Virus record (IMG/VR): IMGVR_UViG_3300010354_000019
Span: 1-33,391 of that record
Strand: one strand, 5' to 3'
DNA length: 33,391 nucleotides
Origin: a virus
Positions 3,824-33,391 of the stretch are shown piece after piece. Made by a program: the position numbers and the translations under genes. Every line of letters starts with the position of its first letter. Positions within the stretch are counted from its first letter, which is position 1. The notes under the pieces are model-generated. The model did not search any database, was not told the origin of the DNA, and saw nothing but the letters and a program-made list of their open reading frames with translations.

Positions 3824-4651
3824 GTGCCGATTCCTTCTCGGGTACTTGGCTCGGGAGTGTCGCAGTTATCTACCGTCTCCATTTGTGGGGATGGCACCGC
3901 AAGCGTAACTGCTGCTGGCACTTCAGCAGGTGATGCCACGGCCATAACTTACGTTTACAACAATGTTGTAACCGTAGGTTCTGGCGCGGGCGTTAAACTG
4001 CCGCCAACCGAGATGGGCGAAACCATTATCGTGCGTAATGGTGGTGCAAACCCGTTGACGGTGTACCCATACGACGCGGGCAGCAGCATCAACAACGTAG
4101 GTTTTGGCACGATCAACCCTGATTGCTCGGCCTTGTTCTTCGCCGTAAGCAATACGCTCTGGGAAGAACTGCAAGGCTTTGGCCGTTCGGTGCCGATCCT
4201 GCATTACGGTGCGTTTAGCGATACGACGCTACAAGCAGCAGCATCTATCAACACCGCTTACGGCATGACGTTTAACACCACCGATAGCAGCAATGGCGTG
4301 TCTATTGGCTCGCCGTCGTCCCGCTTAGTTGTAGATTATCAAGGCGTCTACAACGTGCAGTTTTCGGCGCAGTTAGACAAAACCTCGGGCGGCACAGGCA
4401 ATATTTACATTTGGCTGCGTAAAAACGGCACCAACGTCGCCAACACCGCCAGCACGGTCGCCATCCAAGGAAGCGCAGCGCGTACCGTTGCCGCGTGGAA
4501 CTTTATTATCCAACTTGACCCCACTAACTATGTAGAGTTGATGTGGGCGACGGATGACACAAGCGTTAGAATTCTTGCAGCCAGCGCTACAAGCGTGTGG
4601 CCTGCAATCCCCTCGGTTATTTGTACTTTGACCCAAGTCAATAACCTATAA
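3824..4651 (+). CDS. Virion fibre-like protein with C-terminal C1q/TNF-like jelly-roll domain
   Basis: A 275-aa protein starting at GTG 3824, three bases after the previous stop. Residues 1-118 duplicate the preceding protein. Residues 125-275 form a second beta domain (SVPILHYGAFSDTTLQ start; YQGVYNVQFSAQLDK; NIYIWLRKNGTNV; WNFIIQLDPTNYVELMW) with the strand pattern of C1q/TNF-like trimeric jelly rolls, common at the tips of phage capsid or tail fibres. The likely layout is an anchoring N-terminal domain plus a trimeric head that could bind receptors or carbohydrates. Domain assignment is by pattern only. Confidence 0.66.
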   Translation: MPIPSRVLGSGVSQLSTVSICGDGTASVTAAGTSAGDATAITYVYNNVVTVGSGAGVKLPPTEMGETIIVRNGGANPLTVYPYDAGSSINNVGFGTINPDCSALFFAVSNTLWEELQGFGRSVPILHYGAFSDTTLQAAASINTAYGMTFNTTDSSNGVSIGSPSSRLVVDYQGVYNVQFSAQLDKTSGGTGNIYIWLRKNGTNVANTASTVAIQGSAARTVAAWNFIIQLDPTNYVELMWATDDTSVRILAASATSVWPAIPSVICTLTQVNNL

Positions 4652-4653
4652 CC

Positions 4654-4669
4654 CCAATCCCCACAGGAG
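4654..4669 (+). promoter_or_regulatory. 16-bp repeated ribosome-binding leader (copy 2)
   Basis: This is an exact copy of the 16-mer at 104-119 (CCAATCCCCACAGGAG), here placed 8 nt before ATG 4678. It supplies the AGGAG Shine-Dalgarno core of the next gene. Confidence 0.6.
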
Positions 4670-5220: not shown

Positions 5221-6138
5221 ATGTCCACGACCACGATGCTTGAACTGATCCAGCAAGTTACGAACGAGCTGGGTATTGCCACGCCCTCAACGGTAGCGGG
5301 CAACACAAGCCAAGACGTTGTGCAGCTTTTAGCGCTGATGAACGCCTCGGGTTACGAGTTGATGCGTCGTGCGGATTGGCGTGAGCTGACCCGTCAGCAC
5401 ACGTTTTACACGGAAGCCATCTCCACCACCGGCACATGGACGGATAGCGCGTACACGATTACGGGCATCCCCTCTACTGCCGGTCTGTCCACCGCTTACC
5501 AAGTGCAGGGCGTGGGTATCCCCAACGCGACCTACATCACTAGCGTGGACAGCGCCTCACAGGTCACGCTCAACTATGAGCCGACCGAGGGGCAGGTGGG
5601 CGGCGAGTTGATATTCCAAAAGGTCAAGTATGACCTTCCCGCTGACTACTACAGCACGGTTAATCGTACTCATTGGGATAAGAGCAAGCGTTGGGAAATG
5701 CTCGGCCCCGAGTCGCCGCAGCAATGGGAATGGCTGCTCTCGGGCTACATCAGCACCGGCCCGCGTATCCGCTGGCGCTTGTTAGGCGCGTATTTCCAGA
5801 TTTGGCCGGGTATGAACGCTGGCGAGTTACTCGGCTTTGAGTACCGCAGCAAGGCGTGGGCGCAAGCCGCTAACGGCACCCCGAAAAATAGTTTCACGGT
5901 AGACACCGACACCTGCATCTACCCAGATCGGGTGATGGTGCTGTCTACCAAGCTTAAGTATTTTGAAGCCAAGGGCTTTGATACGACGGCTATCTACCGC
6001 GATTACCTGACGGAGTTGGAAACGGCTATTGCACAGGATACGGCGGCTGCCAACCTGTCGTTTGCGCCACGACCGGGTACGGTGTTGATCGGCTACGACA
6101 ACATCCCGGACAGCGGCTACGGCACGGAAAGCAACTAA
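5221..6138 (+). CDS. Head-tail adaptor (tail tubular A / P22 gp4-like)
   Basis: A 305-aa protein that starts with a helical segment (MLELIQQVTNELGI, then LLALMNASGYELMRRADWREL) typical of podoviral adaptor proteins that dock on the portal. A beta-rich insert follows (about 75-145), then a helical C terminus (LKYFEAKGFDTTAIYRDYL). Its position, after head genes and before the tail hub, supports an adaptor closing the head. GAGGAATAGTGT before ATG 5221 supplies a Shine-Dalgarno site. The family call is by pattern and context. Confidence 0.72.
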   Translation: MSTTTMLELIQQVTNELGIATPSTVAGNTSQDVVQLLALMNASGYELMRRADWRELTRQHTFYTEAISTTGTWTDSAYTITGIPSTAGLSTAYQVQGVGIPNATYITSVDSASQVTLNYEPTEGQVGGELIFQKVKYDLPADYYSTVNRTHWDKSKRWEMLGPESPQQWEWLLSGYISTGPRIRWRLLGAYFQIWPGMNAGELLGFEYRSKAWAQAANGTPKNSFTVDTDTCIYPDRVMVLSTKLKYFEAKGFDTTAIYRDYLTELETAIAQDTAAANLSFAPRPGTVLIGYDNIPDSGYGTESN

Positions 6139-23688: not shown

Positions 23689-24156
23689 ATGAAATACTAC
23701 ATTCGCCATCTCGGCGACTATGCCCGTGACGCGGGCTATTTAACCACCCTTGAACACGGCGTGTATACGCTGCTCCTTGACTGGGCTTACGCCTCCGAAA
23801 AGGGCATCCCAAGGGAAATTGCTTACGACATTTGCAAGGCCAAATCTCGGTCAGAAAAGCGGGCTGTCCAGCGCGTGCTAGAAACATTTTTTTTCTGGGA
23901 CGGTAAAAACGGCTGGCGTCACAAACGGGTAGAAGCCGAAATTGCCAAGATGAACGAAAAAGCTGAAAAAGCCCGTAAAAGCATCAATGTTCGGTGGGAT
24001 CGGCAGAAACAAAAGCAGAGCAATGAGGGTATACGAACGTATAACGAACGTAGTACGGATGTAATACAACCCATAACCCATAACCCTAAACGTAGTCCGG
24101 TAGCCCGTGTCAGCACCGCCGCTGTGTTTAGCGTGGTCGGTCGGAGGGTAGAGTGA
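23689..24156 (+). CDS. DUF1376 (YdaU-like) putative replication protein
   Basis: A 155-aa protein whose N terminus YYIRHLGDYARDAGYLTTLE and HGVYTLLLDWAYASEKGI match DUF1376/YdaU, winged-helix-type proteins found beside phage replication genes. The domain ends near residue 100 with NVRWDRQKQK. A polar linker follows, NEGIRTYNERSTDVIQPITH, encoded by iteron-like DNA. Start ATG 23689 is preferred over upstream TTG 23668 because CCGGAG lies nearby and it matches the family start. It is a good candidate initiator recruiting host replication proteins; direct evidence is absent. Confidence 0.78.
   Translation: MKYYIRHLGDYARDAGYLTTLEHGVYTLLLDWAYASEKGIPREIAYDICKAKSRSEKRAVQRVLETFFFWDGKNGWRHKRVEAEIAKMNEKAEKARKSINVRWDRQKQKQSNEGIRTYNERSTDVIQPITHNPKRSPVARVSTAAVFSVVGRRVE
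24033..24090. repeat. Iteron-like tandem repeats inside the DUF1376 gene (candidate origin)
   Basis: Three 11-bp repeats in phase: ACGAACGTATA (24033-24043), ACGAACGTAGT (24044-24054) and ACGGATGTAAT (24055-24065). Four bases later, three 7-bp units CCCATAA, CCCATAA, CCCTAAA (24070-24090). The region is AT-richer than its surroundings. Period and position inside a replication gene recall the iterons within lambda gene O. Confidence 0.55.
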
Positions 24157-24512
24157 TGGGTGACGAATTCACTTATCCCCCGAGCGCCGCGAAGTCCGGC
24201 CCGAAGGGACTGCCGGACGAGCGAGTGGCGCGAGCGGTAGAGCGTAGTGCGTCGGGTTGGGATGAAGCCGTGCGTAGTAGCCCGCTGAACCGTCTGCGGT
24301 ACTATGATGCGTTGCTGGCTCGCACCGCGTTTTCGGGGGACGCGGGCGAGCGGGAGAAAATTAAGATTCGCGTTGCGGAGTTGATCCGCGAAATCGGAGC
24401 CTCTGACGTACTGACCGACCCCGGCGTAATCGGGTTAGTCAGGGAGTTGTTTGGCGAGAAAGGCGTATTGAGGCTGAAAGAACGTGCCAATTCCACCGCT
24501 AAACAGGTATAG
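24156..24512 (+). CDS. Hypothetical protein of replication block
   Basis: A 118-aa protein, ATG 24156 overlapping the previous stop, with GGAGG 8 nt ahead. The N terminus is polar (EFTYPPSAAKSGPKGLPDER), the rest helical (NRLRYYDALLARTAFSGDAG, VAELIREIGASDVLTDPGVI). It could be a helicase-loader-sized accessory factor by position, but no Walker motif or known domain is present. Confidence 0.63.
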   Translation: MGDEFTYPPSAAKSGPKGLPDERVARAVERSASGWDEAVRSSPLNRLRYYDALLARTAFSGDAGEREKIKIRVAELIREIGASDVLTDPGVIGLVRELFGEKGVLRLKERANSTAKQV

Positions 24513-33050: not shown

Positions 33051-33391
33051 AACGCACCTACGTCTATATAGATGGCGAGTTTGTGGAGCGCAAGAAAGAC
33101 TCCAAGGGCCGCTATCACTATGTCCAAGGCGACATTCAGCCTTACAAGAGCATGGTTGACGGCTCCATGATCACCTCGCGTTCTATGCACCGCCGACACC
33201 TTAAGGCGCACAACTGCATAGAAGTCGGTAACGAAGACCCGACGAAGCACGCGCCCAAGCGCACCGAAGACAAATCGCGCCTAGAACGCTTGAAATACGA
33301 AGTGAACAAGCGTTTTACGAACGAACAGGCAGACCGCCTAATCCGACAGATACGGCAAGAGATGAATTTCACCAATCCCCACAGGAGAGGC
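33047..33391 (+). CDS. 5' part of conserved phage protein split by the contig ends (continues at 124-135)
   Basis: ATG 33047 overlaps the portal stop (ATGA). The frame MKRTYVYIDGEFVERKKDSK runs off the window in phase with codon 124 of the start, where it ends at 135. The combined product is 118 aa with GDIQPYKSMVDGSMITSRSM and HRRHLKAHNCIEVGNEDPTK, a segment conserved in proteins between portal and scaffold in related phages. It may be a structural accessory; no catalytic motif was seen. Confidence 0.85.
   Translation, partial: MKRTYVYIDGEFVERKKDSKGRYHYVQGDIQPYKSMVDGSMITSRSMHRRHLKAHNCIEVGNEDPTKHAPKRTEDKSRLERLKYEVNKRFTNEQADRLIRQIRQEMNFTNPHRRG
33269..33391. repeat. Right copy of 123-bp terminal direct repeat
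   Basis: Exact copy of bases 1-123; see that entry. Confidence 0.97.

Follow-up and report, generated by a model that had tools for sequence, protein, structure and literature searches.

Tandem repeat arrays within a phage DUF1376 gene as a candidate replication origin

Two adjoining tandem repeat arrays, one of 11-bp iterons and one of 7-bp units, were found inside the DUF1376 gene of a phage genome, and we consider it likely (probability of about 0.84) that they form the replication origin of the phage within the gene of its own initiator, where DUF1376 dimers would bind the iterons, the 7-mer tract would open and the helicase would be loaded. The repeats are under selection at the DNA level, they keep a fixed order and symmetry across the family, and the iteron sequence covaries with a basic motif in the encoded protein. 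Anatomy and selection strongly support the proposed origin role, whose biochemical steps are predictions. The stretch studied here (the window) comprises 33,391 nt of the IMG/VR record IMGVR_UViG_3300010354_000019, positions 1 to 33,391. It carries an exact direct terminal repeat of 123 bp (positions 1-123 are identical to 33269-33391), given which it is probably a complete genome with 33,268 bp of unique sequence.

The repeat arrays and the gene that contains them

The DUF1376 gene (23689-24156, plus strand, 155 aa) is proposed to encode the replication initiator on the basis of its Pfam and PHROG matches and an AF2 model. The only Pfam match of the protein is PF07120 (DUF1376), covering residues 3-86 with an E-value of 4.4e-21 and 75.5 bits against a gathering cut-off of 30.1, and the PHROG families that match it are annotated as primosomal protein. 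Both repeat arrays lie 3' of the DUF1376 domain, in the part of the gene coding for the linker and tail. The first consists of three 11-bp iterons on the plus strand (24033-24065), namely ACGAACGTATA at 24033-24043, ACGAACGTAGT at 24044-24054 and ACGGATGTAAT at 24055-24065, and near-palindromic dyad sites were observed at 24032-24041 (TACGAACGTA), 24043-24052 (AACGAACGTA) and 24054-24063 (TACGGATGTA). The second lies on the same strand in the tract 24066-24088 and contains three 7-bp units, AACCCAT at 24068-24074, AACCCAT at 24075-24081 and AACCCTA at 24082-24088, in which the coding strand is devoid of G; this tract is the proposed unwinding and helicase-entry tract. Tandem Repeats Finder reports period 11 at 24029-24057 and period 7 at 24068-24086, and in an exact-period scan the top-scoring period-11 and period-7 arrays of the whole 33-kb window both fall here. 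The 11-bp and 7-bp units that the first-pass annotation had placed in the DUF1376 linker are therefore confirmed by the sequence itself, by Tandem Repeats Finder and by the whole-window scan.

Taken alone, the window gene exceeds its synonymous-codon shuffles with p = 0.01 for period 11 (the floor for 100 shuffles) and p = 0.05 for period 7; these values are modest and it is the homologues that render the repeats compelling. The DUF1376 gene holds the sole cluster of iteron sites in the genome. A single near-copy of the 7-mer pair (TAACCTATAACCC) was seen at 4642-4654, at the end of another gene. The 50-bp segment starting at 24040 has a duplex stability below that of 99% of the windows of the genome, and neither hairpins nor folded single strands better than those of shuffles were found in the arrays. 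The GC skew, which had been suggested earlier as a check, was computed and is uninformative as an origin marker, since gene direction alone accounts for it.

Among the Pfam and PHROG matches of the whole window there is no gene recognisable as a helicase or a loader, a result that gains in meaning if, as is probable, the genome is complete. The next gene (24153-24512, plus strand, 119 aa, family not recognised) overlaps the DUF1376 stop by 4 nt and is a conserved neighbour in close relatives. One may speculate that its product is the loader, or that host proteins fill that role. Elsewhere in the window, 18828-19379 matches a PHROG named ferredoxin (moron class) and 25450-25821 matches one named starvation-inducible transcriptional regulator. 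A C-terminal domain of roughly 100 aa that is present in most relatives is missing from the window protein, which, like the lack of a recognisable helicase or loader, counts against the origin reading. In some relatives (L241, L261 and L279) the ORF that follows DUF1376 begins with sequence resembling this domain (DVDAWERYKAFRKAIKKPI), an arrangement that looks as if the initiator had been split.

The AF2 monomer model of the window protein has a mean pLDDT of 82, with values above 90 up to about residue 110. Helices at residues 8-15, 20-36, 42-48 and 54-67 and strands at 68-71 and 75-78 follow the order of a winged helix, after which a single helix (79-124) bears the basic motif KARKSINVRWDRQK (codons 94-107; 23968-24009, plus strand). 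Iteron tracking, described below, and the model make this the proposed iteron-reading helix. No convincing relative in the PDB was found by sequence, and a fold search against the PDB returned winged-helix-like matches only, the best of which (ORC2, Z 7.0) is background for such models. A bZIP-like basic region, in which the basic helix runs on into a dimerising coiled coil, was considered as an analogy; the monomer model shows the single helix 79-124, and one bZIP row (Z 5.0) appeared among unrelated folds. The palindromic sites suggest dimerisation through helix 79-124. A joint alignment of 13 phage proteins was too divergent to serve as a query and was replaced by sub-alignments.

Conservation of the arrays in close relatives and across the family

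Close relatives were gathered by a search with the downstream gene. Their DUF1376 domain is approximately 44% identical to that of the window, and the three 11-bp units and the 7-mers are still found in the linker. The first-pass annotation had proposed comparing the repeats with the residues that they encode, and in these relatives the repeats persist while the encoded residues vary. The 11-bp unit reads ACGAACGTATA in the window and in the locus L004, and GCGAACGCATA in the other group; the two groups (TACG-AA-CGTA and TGCG-AA-CGCA, respectively) differ at symmetric positions of the near-palindrome and do so in all copies together. Among 15 distinct genes of the GCGAACGCATA group, the share of synonymous differences per codon stands at 0.297 for the domain and 0.345 for the basic helix, falls to 0.049 where the iterons and 7-mers lie, and returns to 0.262 for the tail. 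Synonymous diversity is thus six-fold lower over the repeats than over the domain, and the lowest 25-codon window starts exactly at the first iteron. This is direct evidence for selection at the DNA level, because synonymous sites are frozen over the repeats. One relative (L023, near 5536-6004) carries 21 extra bases, equal to three 7-mers, within the 7-mer tract, so that the tract is longer and the frame intact.

The family set consists of 184 non-redundant full DUF1376 genes (<80% identity) out of 375 loci. Autocorrelation in the linker at lags 7, 11, 14 and 22 lies 12 to 22 SD over synonymous-codon shuffles (z = 21.7 at lag 7 and 21.4 at lag 11), while in the domain the lag-7 signal is absent and the lag-11 signal weaker (z 9.9), and the C-terminal part gives none at the tested lags. 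Gene by gene at p 0.05, period 7 passes in 145 of the 184 genes and period 11 in 114, whereas periods 8, 9, 10, 12 and 13 each pass in 2 to 13, where about 9 are expected. The 11-bp array lies 5' of the 7-bp array in all 92 genes where both pass, and near-palindromes are commoner among the 11-bp consensus sequences than among shuffled units (z 16 in the family dyad test). The 7-mer is mostly TAACCAN, with ACACANN, TCACCAG and related variants, and its array has a strand composition of 52% A, 31% C and 6% G. Over 139 genes, duplex stability was observed to be high across the iterons and to dip across the 7-mers. The earlier reading of these repeats as an origin is accordingly supported in its anatomy, in selection and in the same 11-then-7 order across the family, from which we infer origin activity. 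An independent, unbiased prophage set of 26 further genes (25 from pseudomonadotal genomes, together with E. coli K-12 ydaU) shows period 11 in 12 genes, in favour of the origin reading, and period 7 in only 4, which counts against it.

A scan of viral contigs by DNA alone for (AACCANN) x5 leads back to the same genes: among the matches listed, 78 of 80 loci lie inside DUF1376 ORFs as judged by HMM, on the coding strand, and the other two are genes cut at the end of the locus that still show either the basic region or C-terminal sequence. For the second variant, (ACACANN) x5, 70 of the 80 matches listed are in DUF1376 genes and the rest resemble CA-rich simple repeats. Downstream of DUF1376, a DnaB-like helicase or a P-like or DnaC-like loader was found in a sizeable share of the 75 relatives scanned.

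The basic helix and the iteron sequence

Classes of the basic motif correspond to classes of iteron. The SAxxRW motif occurs with TGCGAACGCA, SINxRW with TACGAACGTA, AGxxS with CGTTCAACG, RIAxxRE with CACGAACCGTG, NGxxGGR with TGGGTTNCCA and ANKRW with TGCCACGGCA. Of the training genes that carry a recognised motif, 141 were uniquely scored; 137 fall on the diagonal of motif class against iteron class and 4 off it, an agreement that is a description and not a proof because the consensus of each class was derived from these training genes themselves. Four genes of the independent set with a recognised motif were scorable for class and all four were as predicted, while seven could not be scored. 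Across 114 genes, iteron similarity has a partial r of 0.63 with motif identity (given the domain) and of 0.24 with domain identity (given the motif). For pairs with less than 50% domain identity, iteron similarity is 0.355 for the nearest by motif and 0.133 for the nearest by domain, against a background of 0.175. In the domain tree SINxRW has two origins, each nested in SAxxRW genes and each accompanied by the change from TGCG-AA-CGCA to TACG-AA-CGTA. One relative (L031, 2993-3476) combines a domain like that of the window with the linker and iterons of the TGCG group, and it bears the SAxxRW motif that the code leads one to expect.

Recent joint transfer of motif and iterons as a cassette was considered as the cause of this covariation and was rejected, because the codon identity of shared motifs in 13 distant pairs equals the domain baseline (0.42 in both). 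The short basic helix of the DUF1376 protein appears to determine which sequence the origin repeats have. The proposed half-site code reads TGCG for SAxxRW, TACG for SINxRW, CGTT for AGxxS, CACG for RIAxxRE, TGGG for GGRP and TGCC for ANKRW, and it relates a basic helix of 12-15 residues after the winged helix to an iteron half-site of 4-5 bp. With somewhat better than even confidence we propose that DUF1376 is a widespread class of phage initiators, with in-gene origins that carry a readable code from basic helix to half-site beside a strand-specific 7-nt array for single-strand entry.

Proposed mechanism, alternatives and known systems

In the proposed mechanism, DUF1376 dimers, spaced at one per helical turn, would occupy the near-palindromic 11-bp iterons, whose half-sites would be read by the basic patch at residues 94-107. 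The bound array would strain the adjoining weak 7-mer tract, whose coding strand is almost free of G, one strand would be exposed at the 7-mers, and the helicase would be loaded there with host or phage loader proteins. Binding by DUF1376, dimerisation, unwinding and helicase loading should all be read as predictions, and for binding the covariation of the iterons with the basic motif gives indirect support. The period of the regular 7-nt tract fits no helical turn of DNA, which hints at a single-strand-binding array.

The repeats could instead be an operator through which DUF1376 represses or times its own operon, with the 7-mer tract serving transcription or RNA control. A DNA-binding protein beside near-palindromic repeats would suit an autoregulator, and many DUF1376 genes lie directly behind Cro/CII-type regulators. 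We nevertheless regard this as improbable, as the sites are in a coding region rather than at a promoter (the one promoter-like match upstream is weak and at chance level), the only site cluster of the genome is in the DUF1376 gene itself, and an operator needs neither a strand-asymmetric 7-mer tract nor neighbouring helicase or loader genes. Direct-repeat arrays and sites in coding regions are also known for packaging and partition functions, and a pac or centromere-like site could by chance lie within the DUF1376 gene. The iteron sequence, however, tracks a motif of DUF1376 itself rather than terminase or ParA/B, no partition gene came to light, and the helicase and loader neighbours in relatives indicate replication, which leaves such a site rather less probable still than an operator.

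The nucleotide pattern might also arise secondarily from a linker peptide of low complexity and repetitive sequence, given that N, Q, P and T abound in the linkers and that a repeat of 21 bp amounts to one of 7 residues. This we hold to be the least probable of the alternatives, with hardly any weight left to it: the signals are stronger than in shuffles that leave the protein unchanged, the same iteron is found in different reading frames, and synonymous sites are frozen only over the repeats. A peptide repeat cannot explain the arrays because neither 7 nor 11 is a multiple of 3, and the synonymous shuffles together with the frozen synonymous sites led to the rejection of both the peptide-repeat and the chance readings, of which the former could be revived only if the synonymous-diversity result came from a sampling artefact.

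If the origin reading is true, a domain of unknown function that occurs in hundreds of phages and many prophages would gain a function, and the replication origins of DUF1376 phages would become locatable by sequence alone. The motif-to-iteron correspondence further predicts that swapping a few basic-helix residues would swap origin specificity. In the searched literature naming DUF1376, part of which was judged by title, no treatment of replication and no binding data were found.

The nearest likeness is with the lambdoid phages. In ori-lambda the iterons and an AT-rich tract lie inside gene O (PMC7466680), and lambdoid phages (ori-lambda and the Stx phages) share with the present case an initiator gene with near-palindromic iterons followed by a weak tract, as well as, in many DUF1376 relatives, a loader or helicase gene next to it. 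The first-pass annotation had described lambda as having the same arrangement; the in-gene layout of iterons stands, but the identity does not, as the lambda iterons are 18 bp against 11 bp here and the initiator O belongs to PF04492 (Phage_rep_O) and not to PF07120. The likeness is for these reasons one of analogy and not of kinship. Lambda also has a plain A-rich opening stretch in place of a regular 7-mer array nearly without G, and no clear 7-base period was detected in that stretch. The oriL of Bacillus phage SPP1 lies in gene 38, with direct repeats and an AT-rich unwinding element in the initiator gene, and its module is completed by the loader gp39 and the DnaB-type helicase gp40 (PMC6316719). 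It is likened here by layout, the direct repeats and unwinding element within an initiator gene, although it belongs to another phage of another host group.

E. coli K-12 has its own DUF1376 member, ydaU (L497, 3620-4477), which lies in the Rac prophage and is open to laboratory tests. YdaU has an AGKxS basic motif, although the automatic motif test left it unclassified, and its linker shows an 11-bp period (p 0.04) with GTTCAA-like sites recognised by eye; no 7-mer array was found in it, unlike the window gene. The adjoining gene encodes YdaV, a DnaC/IstB-like ATPase. The 11-bp period, the basic motif and this neighbour liken ydaU to the present family. The Rac prophage has an active origin, oriJ (PMC3945230). 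A literature search for the map position of oriJ relative to ydaU found none, and ydaU is a possible seat of this origin. The in-gene iteron origin is a kind of element known already; the DUF1376 family, which Pfam does not join to lambda O, would be new to it as an initiator.
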